Below, one piece after another: positions 1 to 27,172 of a DNA stretch of 27,191 bases (its first letter is position 1; every line of letters starts with the position of its first letter). The notes beneath the pieces were generated by a model. The model made no database searches. It was given only the letters and a program-made list of their open reading frames with translations, and had not been told where the DNA came from. The position numbers and the translations under genes were made by a program. This DNA comes from a virus. The stretch lies in the IMG/VR virus record IMGVR_UViG_3300009314_000075, positions 1-27,191 of that record, one strand, 5' to 3'.

Positions 1-30
1 AAAGGGGCTATAACGGCCACTAAATTTTAA
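1..30 (+). CDS. 3' end of a gene paralogous to the 65-aa SH3-like protein (partial)
   Basis: The first 30 bases read in frame as the last nine residues of a protein (KGAITATKF) followed by TAA. The C-terminus of the gene at 24038-24235 is nearly the same (EGNIKATKF), and the DNA shares an 18-base identical stretch across the stop codon. I infer that the window opens inside a second copy of that gene. The start lies outside the window. An alternative reading is that an upstream gene stops at the TAA inside ATAACGG (11-13) and the match is a recombination remnant. Confidence 0.5.
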   Translation, partial: KGAITATKF

Positions 31-53
31 AATAGTGTTATAAAGATTTAATT

Positions 54-209
54 ATGATTGCAAAACTAGATATAGAAATATATGAAAAATGGGGCGGTGA
101 TGAATGGGCTCAAGCAAAATACTTAGTACATGGGTATGATGATGTTTTATGGACTAACAACTTAGAAGACGCATTACAGTTTTTAAAAGAGAGCTGTAAT
201 TCTTTATAA
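54..209 (+). CDS. Small hypothetical protein, 51 aa
   Basis: This is an ATG-initiated ORF of 51 residues (MIAKLDIEIYEKWGGDEW...). It is acidic and rich in aromatic residues, with no signal peptide or membrane segment and no recognisable family. The start follows an A/T-rich leader like other starts in this window. The TAA stop lies inside an ATAACGG motif at 206-212, exactly as in several genes at 22-26 kb, which supports it being a real member of the same plus-strand series. It occupies the position held by the 83-aa gene (24240-24491) in the paralogous block, but the proteins are not obviously similar. Function unknown. Confidence 0.55.
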   Translation: MIAKLDIEIYEKWGGDEWAQAKYLVHGYDDVLWTNNLEDALQFLKESCNSL

Positions 210-274
210 CGGCCTCGAACATACGCCGTAGGGTACGAAACAAAATTGAAAAACAATTAAAAATAAAAAAAACG

Positions 275-8711: not shown

Positions 8712-9250
8712 ATGTGGAAGCTATTAAAACCTGTTTTACTTTTATTTTCTTTTTTGCCGATCCAATTCGGGAAATCAGCCTCGTTATCATTTAAGTATTG
8801 TACAATATTGTTTCTATAACTTGTAACCGATTTCATATAAGAAGCGTTTAAAGCGTTTAAGTTCGCCGTACTTTGCCTCGTCATGTTATCTTGGGGATTA
8901 GCGTCGTAATTCACATTTCCGTAATTAGAGGCGAAACTATCCCCCTCGCGTGAATTAATAGCCGCCCAATGAAATGCAAGGAAGGGCTTTAATCCGTAAT
9001 ACTCAATTGTATCACCATTATAATCGTATGTTTTACCGTTCACAAGCTTAATATATGGCTCATTTTGCGGCACTCCATTTGCGTCTAAATCAGTATAGAG
9101 TAAATTATATAAAGGATCGCCCAAAAGCTCGCGTAATTGCTGTTCCTGTACTCTTAAAGCGAAAATATTAAACCTAGCAGTATTATAATTGCCCGAGATA
9201 TCAATATACACTTTCGCATCGTCTCTTGTAAGGATTATTTTTTTACTCAT
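8708..9250 (-). CDS. Head-tail adaptor-like protein, 180 aa
   Basis: The N-terminus MSKKIILTRDDAKVYIDISGNYN, the LRELLGDPLYNLLY helix and a second helical bundle (LKPFLAFHWAAINS) resemble the all-helical connector proteins that follow portals in Bacteroidota phages. ATG at 9250 is preferred to an upstream in-frame start at 9265, because the MSKK form matches the usual N-terminus and keeps only an eight-base overlap with the portal gene. It probably binds under the portal ring. The C-terminus is basic and Ser/Asn-rich. No enzymatic motif. Confidence 0.6.
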   Translation of the reverse strand: MSKKIILTRDDAKVYIDISGNYNTARFNIFALRVQEQQLRELLGDPLYNLLYTDLDANGVPQNEPYIKLVNGKTYDYNGDTIEYYGLKPFLAFHWAAINSREGDSFASNYGNVNYDANPQDNMTRQSTANLNALNASYMKSVTSYRNNIVQYLNDNEADFPNWIGKKENKSKTGFNSFHI

Positions 9251-10484
9251 TGGTTTCCTCCTCAATTACTTCGGTTTTTTTCGTCTCTTCGGGCGTTATT
9301 TCCGTTTCGTCTTTTTCCCTGTGAATAATAAATTGTTTTGGTTTAATCTCGACTTTCTTACTCCCCCAAACAGAGAAATCTAAAATCTTTTGGAAAATCC
9401 TTTCCTTTCTGCTTCTATTTTTTTCAGTGAAAGTATTATACGTATCAAACGCGTCTACATATTCATCTTTCGAAAATCCTCCGTCCTTCGTTGTTCCCGA
9501 AAGAATTGGCGGCTGTTGAAACATTGTATATATATCGGCTTTCGCTTCTTCGTTTTGCTTTGTAAATAATTTATCTACACCTGTACGGGGAATTTCTTCT
9601 ATTACATTACGGCCTTTTAGAGCTTCCATAGCTGAGGCATTAACCGGTATAGCGTTTGTTCTCCCTGCATTCGCCGAACCACTAGCCCCTTTCACATCTT
9701 TTATCAAGCCCGCTTTTTCGAGGCCTGACTCAATTTGAGCCGGATAAAAAAGTACGTAATTTGCAGCGTAACCGTTCTGGATATTAGAAAGTTTCCAAAG
9801 TTTACTTTCTGCTTGGAATTGTGCATCCTCCATAGCGGCGTCGAAACGGCAAAGGGTATATATGTCCTTTTTTCTAGGCACCCAATATATAATTTGCCCG
9901 TTGAATTCTTCGTTTTCTTCTAAGCTGTCAATTTGATCGCCTACCTTTTCAGGATCAAAAGGAAAATATTCAACTACATTTTTATTCTTGCCGCTAAACC
10001 TTGCTTTTGTCCAGTCTTTACACCAAAAAACTCTGCTTTGGTCATAATTCCATCGCAATAATTCAAAAGAAATTTCGTTCAGCTCGATTATCTGGCCTAA
10101 TACATTATAATTAACGTGGATAGCATAGCCGTTAAACAGAGCTTCGTCATCTGCGGTTATTTCGTGAATATCGGCTAATGTCTGCCCGTCTTCATTAACC
10201 ACAAGTTCGTTTAAGTCGTCATCGATAAAACCGGCTCCATATATAAAGGAAGATAATACACCAATTGAGGCCATTGTCGTGACGGACCTTTCAGCTATGG
10301 ATTTTGCCTTATTGGGATAAAGGTTATCTATATCATATTGAATAATCTCTTTACGTGAGAGCCTCGTTTGTTCAGGTCTAGCCATACGCTGCACAAAGGC
10401 CGTTCTCTGCATTGAATTTACGGCGACTTTCATTTCTGAAGGTTTATCCATGTGTTCTAGTGATCCTTCGTGATTTTGGCCCAT
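9243..10484 (-). CDS. Phage portal protein, 413 aa
   Basis: The portal forms the dodecameric DNA channel at one capsid vertex. Supporting features are the N-terminal region with a DIDNLYPNKAKSIAERS motif, the following helix-strand pattern (YAIHVNYNVLGQIIELNEISFELLRW), a long helical region (VDKLFTKQNEEAKADIYTMFQQPPILSG) and a stem/crown-like C-terminal helix ending in a very acidic tail. Length suits a compact portal. It is the first gene after a well-formed promoter (10499-10529) and lies downstream of the major capsid gene, whereas most HK97-type phages place portal before protease and capsid. The start ATG lies about 14 bases after the -7 box, giving a very short leader. Confidence 0.75.
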   Translation of the reverse strand: MGQNHEGSLEHMDKPSEMKVAVNSMQRTAFVQRMARPEQTRLSRKEIIQYDIDNLYPNKAKSIAERSVTTMASIGVLSSFIYGAGFIDDDLNELVVNEDGQTLADIHEITADDEALFNGYAIHVNYNVLGQIIELNEISFELLRWNYDQSRVFWCKDWTKARFSGKNKNVVEYFPFDPEKVGDQIDSLEENEEFNGQIIYWVPRKKDIYTLCRFDAAMEDAQFQAESKLWKLSNIQNGYAANYVLFYPAQIESGLEKAGLIKDVKGASGSANAGRTNAIPVNASAMEALKGRNVIEEIPRTGVDKLFTKQNEEAKADIYTMFQQPPILSGTTKDGGFSKDEYVDAFDTYNTFTEKNRSRKERIFQKILDFSVWGSKKVEIKPKQFIIHREKDETEITPEETKKTEVIEEETNE

Positions 10485-15973: not shown

Positions 15974-17269
15974 TCAATCTTGTTGGAGATACTTCCAAGC
16001 GTAGTTTGTATGATAGTATCTAAGACTGTAAAAGTAGGCATCAAAGCAGTGATTATGAGCGTCTTCGGGTTTATTAAGAAACTCACCGGTTGTTTGATTT
16101 TCGGCCCATTTAAAGTTGCGTTGCTCGTCCCAAAAGTCCGTAGAATCTTCGTGAAGATAGGTTTTATATTCCTTAGCCATATAAATAACATCATGTCTAA
16201 AATCGTTATTTATTTTAGTTTTATTGGCTTGAATGACATTTATACCACGATCGGCAAATTCGAAACGTCTATCCTTGGATGCGCTCTCACACACTACCTC
16301 GTCATTATTAGGATTAACAGACCATATTAAATCAGCAAAATCGGAAATCAGTATTTCAGGCTTGTACAAGTGTTGTTTAAGAAATACCCTTTTATTCTTT
16401 TTATCAAAGTTAGCCTCAATAAGCGTGTTGGGGTCTTTGCCGCCGAAATCCACACCAAAAACACGGTAAAATATAGCGTCTTCTGGTAGTTCTCTATAGG
16501 TTTTAAACTCAGGGAATATCTGTCCTTTCGGTCTTGCTCTCTTTCCTAATCCGTACACATCCCAGTGCCATGCGCATGAGGTCCCATCCTTGATGTTCTC
16601 AGGAGTTGGCTCATAACCCATAATAACTTGCCTTTGGCCGGCCGGCAAAAAAGCGTTCATCCTGAAAGTAGAATGAAGATAAAATATTTTAGTTGTTATA
16701 TCTCTCTGAAGCTCTTCGCTCCAAGCACGAGTAACTTTGTAATATCCCGGACCATCTTCGAAAGGGGTTAGATTTTTCAATAGCGTGTCAAATATCCAGT
16801 GTTTGTCATAACTAGGATTATAATCCAAAAAGAACAACTTATTCGTCCTCATGTTCACTTGATTGAATGCCTTTTGCGGGAGCTCCATTGTTTCGTTGAA
16901 CCAAAAAACATCTTGCCTTGGACCGTGGAATTTCTGCGGATCATCCGCTCCAACGAATCTAAATACATTATCGTTTTTTACTCCCTCATATCTAGTATTA
17001 TTCCATGCGAAACCTAAATTATACCCATTGCAAAGGTTTTTGAAGTCTGTCCAGATACTAGGTATTGTCCATGTCATTTTCGAACGTCCGCATGTGATTT
17101 TTTTGCGGCTATTTGTTTGTGCGTAAATTTGTAAGAATTGAATTATTGAATGAGTTTTCGAGCTACCAGAAGAGCCTTCAAGCACAAAACCAAGCTTATC
17201 ATAGCTTTTATAGTCAGCTATGTAGTTCTTATAAATGAACCCGAAGACTTCAGTCGCTTGTAATCTCAT
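15974..17269 (-). CDS. terL: Terminase large subunit, 431 aa
   Basis: This ATPase-nuclease packages DNA into proheads. Walker A is GSSGSSKT (residues 32-39), Walker B is VFWFNE (121-126) and the coupling motif FLDYNPS is at 147-153. The nuclease domain (about 265-431) has acidic residues in GVDFG (Asp274), VCESA (Glu328) and the C-terminal DAHNHCFDAYFYS (Asp403/Asp410), as expected for an RNase H-like fold. It starts at an ATG overlapping the small subunit stop by four bases. The length is normal for this family and all key motifs are intact, so it should be active. Confidence 0.93.
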   Translation of the reverse strand: MRLQATEVFGFIYKNYIADYKSYDKLGFVLEGSSGSSKTHSIIQFLQIYAQTNSRKKITCGRSKMTWTIPSIWTDFKNLCNGYNLGFAWNNTRYEGVKNDNVFRFVGADDPQKFHGPRQDVFWFNETMELPQKAFNQVNMRTNKLFFLDYNPSYDKHWIFDTLLKNLTPFEDGPGYYKVTRAWSEELQRDITTKIFYLHSTFRMNAFLPAGQRQVIMGYEPTPENIKDGTSCAWHWDVYGLGKRARPKGQIFPEFKTYRELPEDAIFYRVFGVDFGGKDPNTLIEANFDKKNKRVFLKQHLYKPEILISDFADLIWSVNPNNDEVVCESASKDRRFEFADRGINVIQANKTKINNDFRHDVIYMAKEYKTYLHEDSTDFWDEQRNFKWAENQTTGEFLNKPEDAHNHCFDAYFYSLRYYHTNYAWKYLQQD

Positions 17270-20123: not shown

Positions 20124-20867
20124 ATGGCTAGACCAAAAAAAGATAACGCGGATTATTTTTCCCATGATGCAGATATGAGAAATGATCCAAAAATCAAAGC
20201 CATTCGGAAAAAGTTTGGTTTTATGGGTTACGCTATTTGGTGCTTTCTTCTAGAGACCTTGACTGATTCAGATTTTTTTCAAATAGAATGGAGCGAATTA
20301 AATCAAGAATTGCTTTCTGGAGATTACATGTGTGAAAGTTCAGAGCTAATTGATATAATAAATTATTGCGAGAAGATTCAGCTTTTAACTGTTGAAAACG
20401 GGGTTTTATACAGCGATAAACTAAAAAATCGCTTTGAATCGCTATTATCGAAGCGGAAAAGAGATAGAACAAAGGTTATCGTCAGCGAAAACCCCTATAT
20501 TAAAGTAAAAGAAATTAAAAGAGAAGAAATAAAAGTAAAAGAAAATACTTTTTTAAATAATGAAAATTCTGATTCTTCAATTAATCCTATTCCAATATCA
20601 AATCGTCAAGAGGAAATGAAGAAACATTTACTTTCTCAACAAATTTGGATTGAGCAAATAGCAATGACCCCCACTTTTAAGGGCAGAGACATACCAAATT
20701 TGCTCTTAAAGTTCTTGGATGAGCAAATACTTAAGGAGAATCTTTTTAAGCCAGAAAGAGAGCTTAAAAATCATTTTATTAATTGGTTAAAAACTCCCTC
20801 TTCGAAAATAACGGCGGCAAGCTCAAGCGTTACCGAGTCAATGAACAGAATATTAAATCGCAAATGA
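20124..20867 (+). CDS. Lin1244/Lin1753-type (DUF4373) replication protein, 247 aa
   Basis: Residues 1-100 (ARPKKDNADYFSHDADMRNDPKIKAIRKKFGFMGYAIWCFLLETLTDSDFF...) are a clear Lin1244/Lin1753 N-terminal domain, a winged-helix module found in phage replication-initiation or DnaD-like proteins. A charged linker (about 105-160) follows, with Lys/Glu repeats (IKVKEIKREEIKVKEN). The C-terminal helical region (EEMKKHLLSQQIWIEQIAM...FINWLKTPSSK) resembles a DnaD/DnaB-type tail that loads helicase. No helicase or polymerase is seen nearby, so host enzymes are probably recruited. Its stop overlaps the next start (ATGA). Confidence 0.82.
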   Translation: MARPKKDNADYFSHDADMRNDPKIKAIRKKFGFMGYAIWCFLLETLTDSDFFQIEWSELNQELLSGDYMCESSELIDIINYCEKIQLLTVENGVLYSDKLKNRFESLLSKRKRDRTKVIVSENPYIKVKEIKREEIKVKENTFLNNENSDSSINPIPISNRQEEMKKHLLSQQIWIEQIAMTPTFKGRDIPNLLLKFLDEQILKENLFKPERELKNHFINWLKTPSSKITAASSSVTESMNRILNRK

Positions 20868-21560: not shown

Positions 21561-21749
21561 ATGGCATTAAAAGAGATAATAGACGAATTTGAGAACGAGC
21601 GGGAGCAGCGGCTTGACGAGATAATAAGATGGTTTAAAAGCAATGATACGGAAATAACCGTAAGTGTAATACAACGTCAATTTAGCCTTGGTTGGCGTGC
21701 TGCCAATAGAGCACTAAGGCAGATTAAAGATAAAAACTCAGAAAAATGA
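21561..21749 (+). CDS. Lone FtsK-gamma-like winged-helix protein, 62 aa
   Basis: ATG at 21561, after an A/T leader, is preferred to a start inside the previous gene. Residues about 20-57 (IIRWFKSNDTEITVSVIQRQFSLGWRAANRALRQIKD) follow the FtsK gamma-domain pattern, in which S-x-S-x-x-Q-R-x-F-x-x-G-x-x-R-A-x-R precedes a final helix. In FtsK this domain reads oriented chromosome motifs. Here it stands alone without a motor domain, so it may direct DNA binding of a phage replication or segregation complex, or compete with host FtsK. It overlaps the next gene by four bases. Confidence 0.65.
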   Translation: MALKEIIDEFENEREQRLDEIIRWFKSNDTEITVSVIQRQFSLGWRAANRALRQIKDKNSEK

Positions 21750-22216
21750 TACATAAAAACGCAGAAATTGGAAACACTAAAGGGATAACGTTAATAGAGC
21801 TTGGAGGGGGCGATGTTCAAATAAGTGTGATTAGTTGTAAGGTTAATAAATACACAGGAGTTGAGTTTGTAAATGATAAACCAACCCCTATTGGAACTAA
21901 ACACAATACCGTAGGATGCACAACCGACAACACACAACCCCAAGCAATACTATCATTTACAAGCGTTGCAAGCATAGAGGTTGTTGAAAGAGCGTTGGCA
22001 AAAGCGAAAATATTGCTAAGAAATATGGATAGCCGTATTGACAAAGCATTGCATATAGCTGATGTTAGCGGTTGTTTTTCAGCGGCAGATATAAAGAAAG
22101 CTTACCAAGCTGGCGCAATAGAAACATTAACCGATGGAACCGGCAAGAATACGCCAAGCTTTAATGACCTTAAAGAAATTGAAATTGATGCTAAAAAGTG
22201 GTTAGAGAACACATAA
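21746..22216 (+). CDS. Hypothetical protein, 156 aa
   Basis: The N-terminal half is beta-rich (GITLIELGGGDVQISVISCKVNKYTGVEFV), with Cys at SCKV and GCTTD. The C-terminal half is helical, with VERALAKAKILLRNMDSRIDKALHIADVSG and a final KKWLENT. The gene is coupled to the FtsK-gamma-like gene by an ATGA overlap and ends with a TAA inside the ATAACGG motif at 22213-22219. It is the first gene of the motif-separated series. Function unknown; no enzyme motif is seen. Confidence 0.6.
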   Translation: MIHKNAEIGNTKGITLIELGGGDVQISVISCKVNKYTGVEFVNDKPTPIGTKHNTVGCTTDNTQPQAILSFTSVASIEVVERALAKAKILLRNMDSRIDKALHIADVSGCFSAADIKKAYQAGAIETLTDGTGKNTPSFNDLKEIEIDAKKWLENT

Positions 22217-22261
22217 CGGATCGTGTGCTTTGCGCAGTATTTTTAACAATTAAAAGATAAT

Positions 22262-22438
22262 ATGGAAAAAGTAACTAAAGAAAAATTTTACGAGGTGCTA
22301 AGTAAAACACCTTACAGAACATCTGTTGTTTTAGGTATCAAGGGAATGAGATATAACGGAACAAAAGGACTGTTTAAGAATTCTATGTTTGCAAAAAAAG
22401 TTGATGGAGAATACTATTTAAATAAAGCGTTCTTGTAA
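22262..22438 (+). CDS. Small hypothetical protein, 58 aa
   Basis: This encodes MEKVTKEKFYEVLSKTPYRTSVVLGIKGMRYNGTKGLFKN..., a basic protein with an N-terminal helix and a beta-rich remainder ending YYLNKAFL, compatible with a winged-helix or AP2-like fold. ATG follows the leader TTTTTAACAATTAAAAGATAAT, a pattern repeated before several genes of this series. Function unknown, possibly DNA binding by charge. Confidence 0.6.
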   Translation: MEKVTKEKFYEVLSKTPYRTSVVLGIKGMRYNGTKGLFKNSMFAKKVDGEYYLNKAFL

Positions 22439-22466
22439 TGCACTACAACGAATAAAATACAGACAA

Positions 22467-22775
22467 ATGATAAACGAGATACGAAACGATAAAAGTAAAA
22501 TGGCTATGCAGTATGACACACTATTATGCGCTGCTATTTATAAGATATTAGACCAGAACTGGAAAGATGATATGCAGCCTAGTGAATTTAGTGCGTTTTG
22601 GTATGGATACGACACACTTAGCGACTGTTTATTCGAAGAAGGATTTAAGACTGTAACCAACAAAGAAATGAAACACGCTATGCAGTACCTAAAAGAGAAA
22701 GGAGCGGTTGAACTTAGACCTACTTATGATTGCGATTATAAAATATGTGGTCGGGGTTGGTTTAGTTGCGCATAA
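22467..22775 (+). CDS. Hypothetical protein, 102 aa, winged-helix-like C-terminus
   Basis: The protein is helical with aromatic residues (FSAFWYGYDTLSDCLFEEGFKTVTNKEMKHAMQYLKEKGAVELRPTYDCDYKICGRGWF). The segment VTNKEMKHAMQYLKEKGAVELRPTYDCDYKICGRGWF has a winged-helix pattern (helix, helix, then a beta wing). Cys residues in the wing are uncommon. The stop TAA is embedded in ATAACGG (22772-22778). Function unknown. Confidence 0.6.
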   Translation: MINEIRNDKSKMAMQYDTLLCAAIYKILDQNWKDDMQPSEFSAFWYGYDTLSDCLFEEGFKTVTNKEMKHAMQYLKEKGAVELRPTYDCDYKICGRGWFSCA

Positions 22776-22833
22776 CGGTTTTAACATGTGCCGTTTCAGA
22801 AACATGTACAGATAAATTAATAATTAAACTACT

Positions 22834-22858
22834 ACCTCACAAGTAATATTTGTGCGGT
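22834..22858 (+). promoter_or_regulatory. Hairpin before the zinc-ribbon gene
   Basis: ACC-x-CACAA and TTGTG-x-GGT form an 8-bp stem with one mismatch around a seven-base loop, 18 bases before the ATG at 22877. It lacks a T-tract, so it is more likely a translational or RNA-stability element than a terminator. Confidence 0.4.
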
Positions 22859-22876
22859 GGGATAAAAAATAAAATT

Positions 22877-23392
22877 ATGTGGATTTGTGGAAAATGTTTA
22901 AAAGTAATAGACCCAATTAATGTAACATTTAACGAGGAATGTGAATTTTGCGGAGAAGAGCTAACGACATTAGAAGAAATAAATAGTCTGCTTGAAACTA
23001 AACTCAGCTTTCATGATTTGAATGAAACAGCAAATCAAATATGGACTGCAAAAAAATGTGACGATAAGGAAAATCGGGATAATTATCTCCAAAATGCACT
23101 AAATGACATTAATAAAATATTGAAACTGTACGAACTTAGTGCGTTGGCAAAGGCTGAAACGAACGAGATAGTAAAAGAAAAAAAAGGGAGGGATTTTAGC
23201 GTGGGCGACTACTGCACTGTATTCGATGGAAACAGATGGATGAAAACTGGCGATATTGGCAATAACGAAAGCTTTTGGGTTAAGGCCCTAATTACAGGAT
23301 TTAGAAAAACAGAACATAATGAACTTTTAGTTGATGTGGTGTTTGATAATGGAAGGGAAAGCAAAGGTCATTATATTGAGGGGGTTTTGTAA
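22877..23392 (+). CDS. Zinc-ribbon plus SH3/KOW-like protein, 171 aa
   Basis: ATG at 22877 is preferred to an upstream TTG. Residues 4-25 hold two CxxC pairs (C4-x-x-C7 and C22-x-x-C25, MWICGKCLKVI...ECEFCGEEL), a typical zinc ribbon. Residues about 30-90 are helical. The C-terminal 60 residues (FSVGDYCTVFDGNRWMKTGDIG...VDVVFDNGRESKGHYIEGVL) have a KOW/SH3-like barrel pattern. The combination suggests a nucleic-acid- or transcription-associated protein. Its stop codon lies within the TGTAATATATATTACA palindrome. Confidence 0.65.
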   Translation: MWICGKCLKVIDPINVTFNEECEFCGEELTTLEEINSLLETKLSFHDLNETANQIWTAKKCDDKENRDNYLQNALNDINKILKLYELSALAKAETNEIVKEKKGRDFSVGDYCTVFDGNRWMKTGDIGNNESFWVKALITGFRKTEHNELLVDVVFDNGRESKGHYIEGVL

Positions 23393-23403
23393 TATATATT
23401 ACA
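23388..23403. promoter_or_regulatory. 16-bp palindrome, second copy of the candidate operator
   Basis: TGTAATATATATTACA is a perfect palindrome whose 14-base core is identical to the core of the 24-bp palindrome at 10538-10561. It covers a stop codon and lies 95 bases upstream of the putative regulator at 23498. Confidence 0.55.
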
Positions 23404-23414
23404 TTTTGGTATTT

Positions 23415-23466
23415 TATCGGAATTATCCCCCGTATTTATTTGATTTATCTGAAACTTATTCCGATA
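23415..23466. promoter_or_regulatory. Spaced 9-bp inverted repeat upstream of the 175-aa gene
   Basis: TATCGGAAT (23415-23423) and ATTCCGATA (23458-23466) are exact inverted copies separated by 34 bases, in the intergenic region before the ATG at 23498. With the palindrome at 23388 it suggests a regulatory region; it could also be an RNA hairpin. Confidence 0.45.
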
Positions 23467-23497
23467 TTGCAAATGTAATTAAATAGAAAATTGTAAT

Positions 23498-24025
23498 ATG
23501 AAGAGTCTAATAAAAAAACAGTTTAAAGCTCTCGAAATAACTCAGGAGTCTTTTTGTAAAAAATTTAATTATAAATACAAAGATTTTGCTGATAAGGTGA
23601 AAAGGATGCAAAACAGTATTGATAAGATAAATAAATTCCTAGAGCCTTTAGATTTGGAAATTCAAGTTAATTTTAAAGGTTTGTATATGATACCAGAACT
23701 AAACAAAGAATACGATTACTTTGATGATGGGAAAATAACCCCAAGCAGACACGACAAAGTTACAATAACCGAACTTGTGCGTTTTAACGAAATAGATAAA
23801 GAGATAAAGGCTGAATGGCTTGAAGAAGTTGAGCAATGCCACTGGCTTTATAATAAAGAGACAGACTATTTTGTCAAGGGGAGACTTAAAGAAACGAAAG
23901 AAGATGTGATATTTGTACGAACCTTAGACAGCGGATGGTTTAGTTTAGGATGGTGGGCGGGGCGTTTAGATATGGATGGAAGTTTGGCAGCTGTTGCTGT
24001 AGGTAGTTTATTAAATAACAACTAA
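23498..24025 (+). CDS. HTH-like N-terminus plus conserved phage domain, 175 aa
   Basis: Residues 1-60 (KKQFKALEITQESFCKKFNYKYKDFADKVKRMQNSIDKINKFLEPLDLEI) look like a divergent XRE helix-turn-helix. Residues 64-165 (YMIPELNKEYDYFDDGKITPSRHDKVTITELV...EVEQCHWLYNKETDYFVKGRL...GWFSLGWWAGRLDMDGSL) form a second domain that I know as a widespread uncharacterised module of Bacteroidota phage and mobile-element proteins. The fusion of the two is notable, because the second part usually occurs as a separate protein. The gene has its own 105-base intergenic region with a palindrome and an inverted repeat. Confidence 0.65.
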   Translation: MKSLIKKQFKALEITQESFCKKFNYKYKDFADKVKRMQNSIDKINKFLEPLDLEIQVNFKGLYMIPELNKEYDYFDDGKITPSRHDKVTITELVRFNEIDKEIKAEWLEEVEQCHWLYNKETDYFVKGRLKETKEDVIFVRTLDSGWFSLGWWAGRLDMDGSLAAVAVGSLLNNN

Positions 24026-24037
24026 AAACACTAAGTA

Positions 24038-24235
24038 ATGAGCGATGATAAAGCATTGCATATAGTTACCCACCGTGCTTTTACTAAAGGGCAAAAAGTT
24101 AAAGTATTAGTAGGCTGTGTGTGGCAAAATGCAGAGGTTGAAGATTACCACACAGACCCTAAATATTACTTATGTGGAACTGATGACTGGTCAACCCACT
24201 TCCACGAAGGCAACATAAAGGCCACTAAATTTTAA
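24038..24235 (+). CDS. SH3/KOW-like small protein, 65 aa
   Basis: HRAFTKGQKVKVLVGCVWQNAEVEDYHTDPKYYLCGTDDWSTHFHEGNIKATKF has the small beta-barrel pattern of SH3/KOW-type domains (G-Q-K-V-K-V start, Trp/Tyr-rich strands). The end of a very similar gene opens the window (1-30). It lies 12 bases after the previous stop and four before the next start, so it belongs to the same transcription unit. Such small barrels often bind nucleic acid or ribosomal partners; function here unknown. Confidence 0.6.
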   Translation: MSDDKALHIVTHRAFTKGQKVKVLVGCVWQNAEVEDYHTDPKYYLCGTDDWSTHFHEGNIKATKF

Positions 24236-24239
24236 AAAT

Positions 24240-24491
24240 ATGACAAAAAAGAACGAAACAAACGTACAAGCGAGAACTTATAAGGAATTTAAGAAGCTAT
24301 TAAAACTCTCTTATAATATGGGCTACACATTCAGACATAAGCAGCATGGAGCTTTCAAACTCTGGTATATCAGAGGCTGCAACGGAATTAGCTTATATGA
24401 TTGCAAGAGAATTAAATACATAGAACAAGGGTGCAATATAGATACTATTAGTTACAGAGAGTTTTTATCAAGCTTACACGGAGAGGTTTAG
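24240..24491 (+). CDS. Hypothetical basic protein, 83 aa
   Basis: MTKKNETNVQARTYKEFKKLLKLSYNMGYTFRHKQHGAFKLWYIRG... is a basic, aromatic-rich protein with an N-terminal helix and three or so strands, and several Cys residues (GCN, YDCK, GCN) that may be structural. It starts four bases after the previous stop. No family recognised. Confidence 0.55.
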   Translation: MTKKNETNVQARTYKEFKKLLKLSYNMGYTFRHKQHGAFKLWYIRGCNGISLYDCKRIKYIEQGCNIDTISYREFLSSLHGEV

Positions 24492-24558
24492 TATGTTTTT
24501 ATAACGTATGGGTAAGTTTAGCACGAATGATTTAGTAATAATTTAACACGTGAAAACG

Positions 24559-25002
24559 ATGGAATATACAGGAAAACTTTACGGAAAAATAGGAAATAAA
24601 TATTTTGATACAGGAGTTACAAGCGAGGATTACGACAAATTACAAACGATGAATATAGAACAAACATTAAATGACGTTGCGAACTATTTTAAGCACAAAA
24701 TAATTGAAGGTGAATTTGAATTTAAAAAGTGCGGGGAGCATACAGCAACAGTATTAATTGATGAAAAATACGAGTTCCAATTATGGATAGCTAATGAGCC
24801 AAAAAACAACTTTGACTTTTATGATAGTAGCTTTATGGTTAAAAATAGCGCCGACTTTCTGAAATTTAGAACACAAAAAGAACGACTTGCGGGGTGGAGA
24901 CAGATTAAACCACACGTACAAGCTTACAAAAACAAGGTGCTTAAAAGAGAGAAGCAAAAGGAACTTAATAGGCTAAAAAAGGAATTAGAAGCACTTGATT
25001 AG
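24559..25002 (+). CDS. Hypothetical phage protein, 147 aa
   Basis: ATG at 24559 (MEYTGKLYGKIGNKYFDTGVTSEDYDKL...) is preferred to a GTG nine bases upstream, because the MEYTGKLYGKIG start is common in Bacteroidota phage proteins. The middle is a mixed alpha/beta domain (VANYFKHKIIEGEFEFKKCGEHTATVLIDEKYEFQLWIANEP). The C-terminus is a long basic-acidic helix ending RLKKELEALD, the same ten residues as in the fragment at 275-337. Just behind the stop is the 95-base inverted repeat at 25010-25104. Function unknown. Confidence 0.6.
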   Translation: MEYTGKLYGKIGNKYFDTGVTSEDYDKLQTMNIEQTLNDVANYFKHKIIEGEFEFKKCGEHTATVLIDEKYEFQLWIANEPKNNFDFYDSSFMVKNSADFLKFRTQKERLAGWRQIKPHVQAYKNKVLKREKQKELNRLKKELEALD

Positions 25003-25009
25003 CCTTGCA

Positions 25010-25104
25010 TATAACGGTTTGTATAAGATTTGAAGGGCAAACCACTAACGATAATTAAGAGAGCAAAAGGCTATATTGTCCTTTTAATTTTATACTTCGT
25101 TATA
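25010..25104. repeat. 95-bp imperfect inverted repeat, attC-like
   Basis: Outer arms TATAACG (25010-25016) and CGTTATA (25098-25104) are perfectly complementary. After spacers of four and two bases, a second arm (25021-25036 with 25080-25095) pairs over 16 positions with one mismatch and two G-T pairs. Two box pairs, unequal spacers and a long loop are the architecture of integron attC sites, although the boxes do not match the canonical consensus exactly. Confidence 0.6.
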
Positions 25105-25123
25105 GCCAGTTAATTTTATAATA

Positions 25124-25408
25124 ATGCACAGAAATCCAAAAACAGTACGTGAGCTTAAAGAAACAATAAGCTTAAAAGAAAGTGAATTAATAGAACTTAA
25201 GCACCAATTAAAAAACGAACTTGAATTAGTGCCTGTAGGTTACGAGCTTATTGGTTCTGGTGATGAAGTTAAGGCGGGGGCGTTGGGTTATGAGCCTTAC
25301 CACGGAAATTGGAGCAAAACAGGAAACTCGGTAGGTAAGATACTGAATGAGCAAGGATATGTAACAGGAATAACCCATAGAGGGTGGAAATATGCCAACC
25401 CGGTTTAA
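25124..25408 (+). CDS. Small hypothetical protein flanked by inverted repeats, 94 aa
   Basis: This has an N-terminal helix of about 35 residues (TVRELKETISLKESELIELKHQLKNELELV) and a C-terminal beta-type domain (GYELIGSGDEVKAGALGYEPYHGNWSKTG...GYVTGITHRGWKYANPV). It resembles small phage-encoded modules of unknown role. The gene is bracketed by CGTTATAGCCAGTTAA (25098-25113) and its near-perfect inverted copy (25405-25420), so gene plus one flank could be a mobile or cassette-like unit. Confidence 0.55.
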   Translation: MHRNPKTVRELKETISLKESELIELKHQLKNELELVPVGYELIGSGDEVKAGALGYEPYHGNWSKTGNSVGKILNEQGYVTGITHRGWKYANPV

Positions 25409-25458
25409 TTGGCTATAACGCAGATGGGGTATGTGCTGAGAATTTAAAACAATTAGAT

Positions 25459-25764
25459 ATGATAAAACTTAAAGACAAAATTAATAAGAGTGTGGCATTA
25501 CGAACAATACGCAGAGATGCTGAAAAGATGTACAAAGAAAGTTGGCAGCCTGAATTGCAAATAGAAGCCTATGTAAAAGGGGCAGAGGCTATTTTAAATT
25601 ATTTGCACATACCACGTGTTAGCGGTAGTTTTCACTCAAATACAAACGAAGAGAATGAAAAGATACTGACTGATATACTTTACGAACATACAGATGAAAA
25701 AGAGATGAAAATTAGAGAAGTTGATTATGAGGAAGTGATTAAGGATATAATGGAATATTTTTAA
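25459..25764 (+). CDS. Hypothetical protein, 101 aa
   Basis: ATG at 25459 (MIKLKDKINKSVALRTIRRDAEKMYKESWQ...) follows an A/T leader (AATTTAAAACAATTAGAT) and avoids overlap with the previous gene. The protein is helical (LQIEAYVKGAEAILNYL), followed by an acidic C-terminal part (EENEKILTDILYEHTDEKEMKIREVDYEEVIKDIMEYF). No membrane segment or known motif is visible. Function unknown. Confidence 0.6.
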   Translation: MIKLKDKINKSVALRTIRRDAEKMYKESWQPELQIEAYVKGAEAILNYLHIPRVSGSFHSNTNEENEKILTDILYEHTDEKEMKIREVDYEEVIKDIMEYF

Positions 25765-25853
25765 ATAACCGCTAACGGCCACCAGCTATGAACTGGCTTT
25801 GATTGATTACAGATAAATGATAAAACGAGTATAAAACTTTAAAAACACGAGCG

Positions 25854-26093
25854 ATGGCAGATGCTAAAATAACGAGACTTAGGAACTTATTAACGCCTGT
25901 AAAGAACTACTTTACATTGCTAGAGGTCGCAGAAAAAGCAAGCGCAAACGATGAGATAGAAAAGTTTAATGTTACGCTTGCTATAATGAGGACGGAAATA
26001 GAAAGGATTAACGAGACTAAAGAAGAGATATGGGGAATAATAGCTGAAATCCCAGATAACGCGTGCGACGGTTTGGCTAAACGGTCGTTTTAA
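25854..26093 (+). CDS. Hypothetical helical protein, 79 aa
   Basis: MADAKITRLRNLLTPVKNYFTLLEVAEKASANDEIEKFNVTLAIMRTEIERINETKEEIWGIIAEIPDNACDGLAKRSF is mostly alpha-helical, with a helical-hairpin pattern of hydrophobic residues. The stop TAA lies in the loop of a hairpin (26076-26105), so gene end and structure overlap. The start is preceded by an 89-base gap with a CTAACGG motif and a short hairpin. Function unknown. Confidence 0.55.
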   Translation: MADAKITRLRNLLTPVKNYFTLLEVAEKASANDEIEKFNVTLAIMRTEIERINETKEEIWGIIAEIPDNACDGLAKRSF

Positions 26094-26118
26094 TGCCGTT
26101 TTAGCTGTTGTTAGGCAC
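26056..26118. repeat. Hairpin and R-box-like site at the end of the 79-aa gene
   Basis: GCTAAACGG (26076-26084) pairs with CCGTTTTAGC (26096-26105), with one bulged A, around the stop codon. It is flanked by ATAACG (26056) and GTTAGGCAC (26110-26118). GTTAGGC is an exact match to the integron R-box consensus GTTRRRY, and its inverted partner GTGCCTAAC follows the methyltransferase gene. The outer arms pair poorly, so a full attC is not shown. Confidence 0.4.
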
Positions 26119-26144
26119 AGTTTACCACCGATAAAATTAATAGA

Positions 26145-27095
26145 ATGGAATTAAATACAGTACATAATATAGATTTTTTAAATAATGATTTGCCCGATAA
26201 ATGTGCAAATTTAATAATTGCAGACCCTCCATACTTCGAGGTAAAAGGAGATTTTGATTTTGTATGGAATAGCTTTGAAGATTATTTAAAAGACGTTGAA
26301 AAATGGGCTATTGAATGTAAAAGGATTTTATCAGATAATGGCACTTTGTTTTGGTATGGAGATGCTAAAAATATCGCTTATGCTCAAATAATTTTTGATA
26401 AGCATTTTAATTTAATGAGCAATGTTACTTGTCATATTTTTGATAGGCAAACAAATAAAACACCAATAGAAGAAGCACGTAGTTTTATTAGTACTACTGA
26501 ACGTATTTTAATGTATAGCAACGAAACGTATAATTTAACTCAATGTGTTTACCATATACGGGATTACATAAGAAAAGAAATAACCAAAGCAAAAGGTAAA
26601 ATAGTATTAAAGCAAGTTAATGAAGCTTTAGGAACTGCAACAAATGGTGGTGGTGTTGCAAGTGCTTGCTTAAGCTTAAATAAAGCTGAGCCAACAATGC
26701 TAACAAAAGAAATGTATGAGAAATTGCAAGATTGGTGCTATCCATATTTACGCAAGGAATACGATGAACTACGCAAGGAATACGATGAACTACGCAGACC
26801 ATTTAACCCAACAGAAAAATATAAAATGGATGTATTAAGAGTTTCACAAGAAGGGCACATTACAGGTAAATACGACCACGACACAGTAAAACCAGAAAAG
26901 CTAACAAGGATATTAATAAACACTTGTAGCCGTGAAAATGATTTAGTAGTAGTTCCTTTTGCTGGAAGTGGAACAGAGTGTGCAATGAGTGCAAAAGAAA
27001 AACGTAATTTTATAGGCTACGAGATAACAGAGAAACACGCAAAGATGGCACAAGATAGAGCGAATAAAATATTAAAAGAACCTACTTTGTTTTAA
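26145..27095 (+). CDS. DNA adenine N6-methyltransferase (beta-type), 316 aa
   Basis: The DPPY catalytic motif (27-30, IIADPPYFEV) precedes the SAM-binding FAGSG motif (272-276, VVVPFAGSGTECAMS), an order typical of beta-class amino-methyltransferases. DPPY points to adenine N6 modification. Between them, residues about 135-235 form the probable recognition region, containing a 21-base tandem repeat that encodes LRKEYDE twice. No restriction enzyme gene is nearby, so it is an orphan methylase, probably protecting phage DNA or regulating promoters. The gene is bracketed by GTTAGGCAC and GTGCCTAAC, suggesting it arrived as a cassette-like unit. Confidence 0.85.
   Translation: MELNTVHNIDFLNNDLPDKCANLIIADPPYFEVKGDFDFVWNSFEDYLKDVEKWAIECKRILSDNGTLFWYGDAKNIAYAQIIFDKHFNLMSNVTCHIFDRQTNKTPIEEARSFISTTERILMYSNETYNLTQCVYHIRDYIRKEITKAKGKIVLKQVNEALGTATNGGGVASACLSLNKAEPTMLTKEMYEKLQDWCYPYLRKEYDELRKEYDELRRPFNPTEKYKMDVLRVSQEGHITGKYDHDTVKPEKLTRILINTCSRENDLVVVPFAGSGTECAMSAKEKRNFIGYEITEKHAKMAQDRANKILKEPTLF
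26748..26789. repeat. 21-bp tandem duplication in the methyltransferase gene
   Basis: Two in-frame copies encode LRKEYDE, and a third partial copy encodes LRRPF. The copies differ by one base (TTA versus CTA at the start). It lies in the putative target-recognition region, so copy number change could alter specificity. Confidence 0.7.
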
Positions 27096-27097
27096 TT

Positions 27098-27172
27098 GTG
27101 CCTAACTACGTTATATAAGACAGTCCACTGGTGTATATACTCCAAATAAGACGGATATAAACACCGTAGTTA
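27098..27172. repeat. Inverted repeat after the methyltransferase gene, attC-like
   Basis: TAACTACG (27103-27110) pairs with CGTAGTTA (27165-27172). Directly inside, TTATAT (27111-27116) pairs with ATATAA (27155-27160) after a four-base spacer on one side only. The element begins with GTGCCTAAC, whose GCCTAAC matches the integron R-box consensus RYYYAAC. Confidence 0.5.

Follow-up and report, generated by a model that had tools for sequence, protein, structure and literature searches.

The early region of a flavobacterial siphophage probably carries an array, partly decayed, of mobile integron-like gene units that are recombined by an enzyme supplied by the host, a reading to which we give a probability of about 0.6 on the basis of sequence comparison. 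The phage, whose host is a flavobacterium-like bacterium, is represented by IMG/VR record IMGVR_UViG_3300009314_000075, a 27,191-bp linear record of a tailed phage that was analysed over its whole length (hereafter the window). The array is real and integron-like, and its kind is already known. A preliminary description of this DNA had presented an integrase-less cassette array in a phage as new, but 17 integrase-less attC arrays in phages, including one from a Polaribacter phage whose cassettes carry methyltransferases, were already published by Qi et al. 2023 (PMC9892861). What would be new is the polarity of the units and their apparent insertion end, both of which were seen in relatives and are consistent with the window. 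A full unit would consist of an imperfect hairpin (TAACG-spacer-stem ... stem-spacer-TGTTA), one small gene and a closing TAAC box, and because the closing box would be complementary to the unit's own GTTA box, excision as a circle would restore a site with perfect matching. We infer that units join at TAAC by a single-strand mechanism, that the enzyme is most likely a host-supplied integron-type tyrosine recombinase or another hairpin-recognising recombinase, and that the benefit to the phage would be the swapping of methyltransferases and other small anti-host genes.

Complementary ends and hairpin sites in the window

The strongest signal in the window is the complementarity of unit ends, which the preliminary description had seen in part. 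Integron boxes that flank a gene fuse into one attC site in the excised circle and therefore must match each other. Three of the 25 early genes show this cassette signature, with complementary ends of 10 bp, of which the one ahead of the gene resembles GTTRRRY and the one behind it RYYYAAC. Around the methyltransferase gene, GTTAGGCACA (from 26110) and TGTGCCTAAC (27097-27106) are reverse complements of each other, so the exact GTTRRRY (26110-26116) and RYYYAAC (27100-27106) boxes reported earlier are present and turn out to be the two ends of a single unit. Similarly, GTTATAGCCA at 25099 is complementary to the box that closes its unit at 25419, and the same is true of GTTATAAAGA at 37 and the box that closes its unit at 210. 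The remaining early genes comprise 20 without complementary ends of at least 5 bp and two with T-rich matches of 5-6 bp; most lack the R box complementary to the cassette's own end that would be expected in a cluster of attC sites lacking an integron integrase (CALIN). The genes between the sites (ORFs, open reading frames, 24550-27095 and 54-209, + strand) are, as in a CALIN, small, unrelated and in one direction, and mostly have no Pfam or PHROG match. Complementary 9-mer pairs at 25618/25776 and 23993/24749 lie inside coding sequence and were rejected as chance.

Sites with paired R and L boxes, of which a CALIN has at least two, were found at 25012-25105 and 26057-26113, together with two weaker ones. 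Hairpins were scored by searching for TAAC...GTTA pairs that enclose a stem and comparing the scores with shuffle maxima. The site at 25012-25105 reached a stem score of 10.8 against a 95th percentile of 7.95 for the shuffle maxima, a level that no other array site exceeded, and a site of the same type is present at 6894-6986 of contig L061. The site at 26057-26113 has the stem GGCTAAACGG...CCGTTTTAGC, carries an insertion of about 9 nt in its left spacer relative to other copies, and is recognised by homology. These two alone are convincing two-box hairpins. The inverted repeats reported earlier at 9-42 and 27103-27172 are weak, and the picture of each gene being followed by a foldable repeat was not confirmed. 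An Rfam search of the window gave no match to an attC model and only a chance tmRNA match.

The copies of ATAACG and CTAACGG listed in the preliminary description are all present where it placed them, and their concentration at gene ends is borne out by the statistics. On the + strand between 18.5 and 27.2 kb, 5 of 12 ATAACG copies fall within -6 to +15 of a stop codon when 0.64 are expected (p ~2e-4), and the same is true of 6 of 15 copies of [AC]TAACG (0.80 expected, p ~7e-5). Bare ATAACG is a weak signal, being only slightly over-represented across the window (24 copies vs 15.6 expected, with 3 of 100 shuffles reaching 24).

Homologous sites and units in other phages

We searched 50,697 phage records with the methyltransferase unit using blastn and found a 73-bp match (82% identity) between 26057-26147 of the window and an attC region of Polaribacter phage P12002L (29971-30046). 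The match covers just the site before the gene, which in P12002L precedes an unrelated methyltransferase. The same search matched Flavobacterium phage methyltransferases at 72% DNA identity. The stem core of 26057-26113, TAAACGGTCGTTTTAATGCCGTTTTA, occurs exactly in 39 viral contigs, before different genes; a plasmid search for the attC body gave no convincing copy. Since the site is homologous to the P12002L attC region and its stem core is shared by 39 contigs, the earlier attC assignment is, as far as sequence homology can tell, sound. Two P12002L attC sites, which may differ from the one matched here, have been tested with IntI1 and one of them recombined (Qi et al. 2023, PMC9892861). Like the P12002L CALIN, the window belongs to a Bacteroidota phage, carries a methyltransferase unit and no integrase, and has the 82% identical site, but its sites are mostly halves and its genes are different. 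Neither the linkage of a hairpin to its downstream gene nor joints at TAAC were described by Qi et al. 2023.

The preliminary description had proposed looking for the same genes beside different neighbours, and the methyltransferase unit provides such a case. It is also found in another phage contig (L022), where homology starts inside the hairpin, extends to TTGTGCCTAAC and ends exactly after GCCTAAC, at the box, with DNA outside the unit that is unrelated to the window flanks. For a second methyltransferase family, the upstream hairpin is common to the contigs and the DNA differs from contig to contig right after CCCATAAC. For the phage of the window itself, mobility is suggested by the methyltransferase unit and by the way this unit is built. 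Searches with the other array genes found one relative of gene 25124 (39% identity), without sites around it, and no phage match for gene 24550. At 3180-4200 of L044, a contig from a Geobacter metagenome-assembled genome, lies a methyltransferase of 48% identity whose unit ends, GTTAGCATG ... CATGCTAAC, are complementary. This genome also encodes a true integron integrase, intI (347 bits), but the 3.3 kb of neighbouring sequence read showed no recognisable array.

Exchange points and polarity in related arrays

Exchange was followed in the arrays of 11 isolated Baltic Flavobacterium phages (Lillamyvirus/Muminvirus; L003, L087-L096). These arrays resemble the window in having hairpin-gene units and a 64% identical methyltransferase; they differ in having complete, canonical-looking hairpins at most joints. 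The terminase of the window is closest to Flavobacterium phages, at 29.5% identity. Gene order varies among the eleven arrays and the exchange points concentrate at TAAC, in line with the earlier expectation of breakpoints at ATAACG-type sites: left homology ends at TAAC in 16 of 29 cases and right homology starts there in 15 of 24, against a background of 4.9%. In lillamy9-1 the unit [b6 G7] lies inside the array, between TTTTACATAAC and GAGTTATAAC/GTTAAAGC, and in lillamy9-7 this place is closed as TTTTACATAAC/GTTAAAGC while a 99% identical copy stands at the far end of the array, where lillamy9-1 reads GCTTATAAC/TACAATATT; both the vacated and the occupied place have TAAC joints. Clean gain or loss at TAAC was also seen between sniff and snork and between hemulen and stinky. 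All eleven genomes carry an identical 200-bp flank beginning TACAATATTACATG, in front of which stand, depending on the genome, seven different genes that all end in TAAC. Integron arrays likewise have one variable and one conserved end, and the flank stands where attI would be. Within a single array, hairpin type b4 occurs in front of two different genes; hairpin families are hence also homogenised or reused.

These joints might instead be hot spots of illegitimate recombination, at which slippage between ATAACG repeats at the hairpin feet deletes a hairpin together with its gene and phage recombination spreads the products. Many joints have no more than 5-7 bp in common, a deletion of this kind would leave each hairpin with its downstream gene and so produce the same linkage, and the one indel that separates the window from a sister contig resembles a microhomology deletion. 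Slippage gives losses, yet [b6 G7] was gained at the array end of lillamy9-7 with TAAC at both joints, and the surroundings of the methyltransferase unit in L022 are unrelated. As the complementary ends of a single unit would also have no role, we find this explanation improbable.

The polarity of the units was addressed with a targeted linkage test, after pair-by-pair classing of 113 heuristic sites had proved too sparse for the purpose. Among contigs with the P12002L-type hairpin, 12 valid pairs in 5 gene groups share the downstream gene and differ in the upstream one, and none shows the opposite (4 of 16 pairs in the first set, involving L063, were dropped as artefacts because the upstream side lies off the contig). 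Methyltransferase homologues share the upstream hairpin without the downstream one in 16 pairs from 3 groups, again with no opposite case. Judged by these linkages, all 8 gene groups have the hairpin belonging with the downstream gene, opposite to what canonical cassettes show. The Flavobacterium arrays agree in direction: of 20 genes, 3 vary in the hairpin upstream of them and 8 in the one downstream. Along the coding strand the sites have the form TAACG...TGTTA, in which a G follows TAAC in 96 of 109 and a T precedes GTTA in 102 of 109, and the hairpins are strongly asymmetric, with 181 vs 23 strong-on-5'-arm mismatches. The P12002L-type hairpin has its extra T in the 3' arm.

Like canonical integron cassettes, the units have a hairpin with two boxes, R boxes at their two ends that complement each other, a single small gene each, one common direction and apparent insertion at one variable array end. 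In the canonical cassette, the attC site follows the gene and IntI, acting on the folded bottom strand, cuts the right box at G/TT, whereas the phage units have the hairpin before the gene, joints at the TAAC of the left box, TAACG...TGTTA on the coding strand and no integrase. The preliminary description had placed the repeat after its gene; in the relatives, exchange occurs at the TAAC of the gene end and the hairpin moves with the downstream gene. An attC site that goes with the upstream gene and has its boundary at G/TT was not seen in the relatives, or in the window itself as far as L022 allows it to be judged. The integrases known so far recombine the bottom strand and so set a single orientation for cassettes, and left-box cutting would therefore be unusual.

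Several observations weigh against our reading. Most sites in the window are half sites. When eleven intergenic regions were folded as single DNA strands, their minimum free energies were no better than those of shuffled sequence (z +0.8 to -1.6), an outcome that the preliminary description had itself named as refuting it, and our argument therefore makes no use of folding energy alone. The counts behind the polarity were made on pairs with common ancestry, and about 5 of the 29 exchange points lie at the right box GTTA. In the longer hairpins the extra base is in the 5' arm in 27 cases, in the 3' arm in 11 and absent in 50; the 5' position is the canonical attC orientation, so that its excess does not fit left-box cutting by known IntI. 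The indel at 212-336, the sole difference between window and sister contig within the lineage, has a box at one edge only. Finally, no recombinase was identified, in searches that covered phage records and not Bacteroidota host genomes. The earlier cassette reading thus stands in substance, through the complementary ends, the homology to P12002L, the methyltransferase unit elsewhere and the lack of a phage integrase, and falls short on polarity, on novelty and on the half sites that make up most ATAACG gene ends.

The excess of 5'-arm bases and the few exchange points at GTTA are what one would expect if the array were a plain CALIN, that is, ordinary cassettes (gene plus downstream attC, cut at G/TT by a bacterial IntI) that were captured and are decaying. 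This explanation has a published precedent in P12002L, with tested sites (Qi et al. 2023) and a homologous site in the window, and it too predicts complementary unit ends. We nevertheless consider it unlikely, since the hairpin was never found moving with the upstream gene, exchange points lie mainly at the left box, and the variable end of the Flavobacterium phage arrays meets the constant flank at TAAC with no hairpin between.

Recombinase searches, significance and genome context

As the preliminary description had supposed, an integron integrase is absent: no PF00589 tyrosine recombinase was found in the window, and none of 36 phage records, the sister contig included, had a match to TIGR02249 above the cut-off. 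Complete Flavobacterium and Polaribacter phages and the sister contig likewise lack PF00589, PF01797 (Y1) and PF00239 (serine) domains. If exchange is site-specific and the phages have no recombinase of their own, the enzyme would therefore come from the host. An ordinary tyrosine recombinase (PF00589, 114 bits) is encoded at 39979-40407 of G037 (the contig of L049), a contig with a P12002L-type hairpin.

The enzyme might also be a host transposase of the Y1/HUH type, or another single-strand transposase, that cuts 3' of TAAC at the hairpin foot in the manner of IS200/IS605 or repetitive extragenic palindromic (REP) elements. IS608 inserts 3' of a fixed tetranucleotide next to a hairpin, and the phage units, which insert 3' of a fixed TAAC by a hairpin and end in TAAC, resemble this target logic. 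In contrast to IS200/IS605 and REP elements, the phage units have a paired right box, and no Y1 domain was found in 19 phage records, a search that did not extend to host enzymes. Because the matched right box GTTA and the homology to the P12002L attC region favour attC, we regard such a transposase as very improbable.

Beyond the integron-like array itself, we tentatively propose, at a little short of even odds, that Bacteroidota phages share a pool of reverse-polarity units (hairpin, gene, TAAC), inserted at one end of the early operon by a putative trans-acting recombinase of geometry opposite to known integron integrases, and that these would let virulent phages exchange methyltransferases and other small genes. 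Integron cassettes are held to be bacterial and their phage copies rare curiosities; here units of this kind are an ordinary building block of many Bacteroidota phage early regions, with one hairpin core in 39 viral contigs, and this in a phylum in which complete integrons are reported to be nearly absent (IntegronFinder 2.0 paper). The reversed polarity, if true, bears on the choice of strand and box by integron recombinases.

Methyltransferases are found repeatedly among the genes of these units. If exchange is site-specific, it would also offer a concrete mechanism for fast methyltransferase gain and loss in the cultured Flavobacterium phages. Nilsson et al. 2020 (PMC7077304), who make no mention of integrons, cassettes or integron-like sites, reported that LMO9 phages without one particular methyltransferase plate 1000-10000x worse on strain LMO6, and that morran9-1 and lillamy9-1 are among the phages that recover plating after growth on LMO6. 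We found that both lack the block [b14 G17 b15 G18], whose methyltransferase is present in hemulen6-1, sniff9-1, snork6-1, filifjonk9-1, mumin6-3 and tooticki6-1. Presence or absence of this hairpin-gene block may explain the plating differences, and its methyltransferase is a candidate for the gene of Nilsson et al.

A relatives search by terminase and portal returned a single sister contig, IMGVR_UViG_3300013120_000316 (L005), which is 99.7-100% identical to the window and has a different start point. The window is a fragment, and the sister contig supplies 8.7 kb that join its right and left ends, giving a genome of about 36 kb. Feature positions are collected in Table 1.

Table 1. Positions of array sites, units and other features in the window and, where marked L005, in the sister contig.
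Feature	Position	Strand	Remarks
Methyltransferase unit body	26110-27106	+	GTTAGGCACA ... N6_N4_Mtase gene 26145-27095 ... TGTGCCTAAC; 10-bp complementary ends
Unit with gene 25124-25408	25099-25419	+	10-bp complementary ends GTTATAGCCA ... TGGCTATAAC
Unit with gene 54-209	37-210	+	Complementary ends GTTATAAAGA ... TCTTTATAAC
Best two-box hairpin	25012-25105	+	TAACG + GTATAAGATTTGAAGGGCAA / TTGTCCTTTTAATTTTATAC + CGTTATAG
attC-like site before methyltransferase	26057-26113	+	Left box TAAC 26057-26060, right box GTTAGGC from 26110
Short weak hairpin	9-42	+	TATAACGGCCACTA ... TAGTGTTATA; score 3.4, not significant alone
Weak hairpin after methyltransferase unit	27103-27172	+	TAACTACG ... CGTAGTTA; score 5.0, like shuffles
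Half site, left box only	22213-22218	+	End of gene 21746-22216
Half site, left box only	22772-22777	+	End of gene 22467-22775
Half site, left box only	24501-24506	+	After gene 24240-24491
Closing box of 25124 unit, left box only	25415-25420	+	Right half absent before next gene 25459-25764
Half site CTAACG, left box only	25772-25777	+	After gene 25459-25764
125-bp segment	212-336	+	Present in window, absent in sister phage
Tape measure	379-2964
Portal	9243-10484
Terminase	15974-17269	-
Replication protein	20124-20867
Joining 8.7 kb	L005 5931-14592		DnaA-like gene, opposite-strand late-gene block, second small + strand block
DnaA-domain-like ORF	L005 5934-6416		Next gene after hairpin 27103-27172

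The second small + strand block of the sister contig terminates at 1-211 of the window, next to the 212-336 segment. The left edge of this segment lies at ATAACG/GCCT, and its right edge is off any box, with a 4-bp microhomology, GCCT. The tiny ORF 276-338, which the sister phage lacks, is related to the C-terminus of 24550-25002, of which it is a truncated version with 91% DNA identity across 44 bp. An exact 21-bp tandem repeat (TACGCAAGGAATACGATGAAC x2) is present at 26749-26790, inside the methyltransferase gene.

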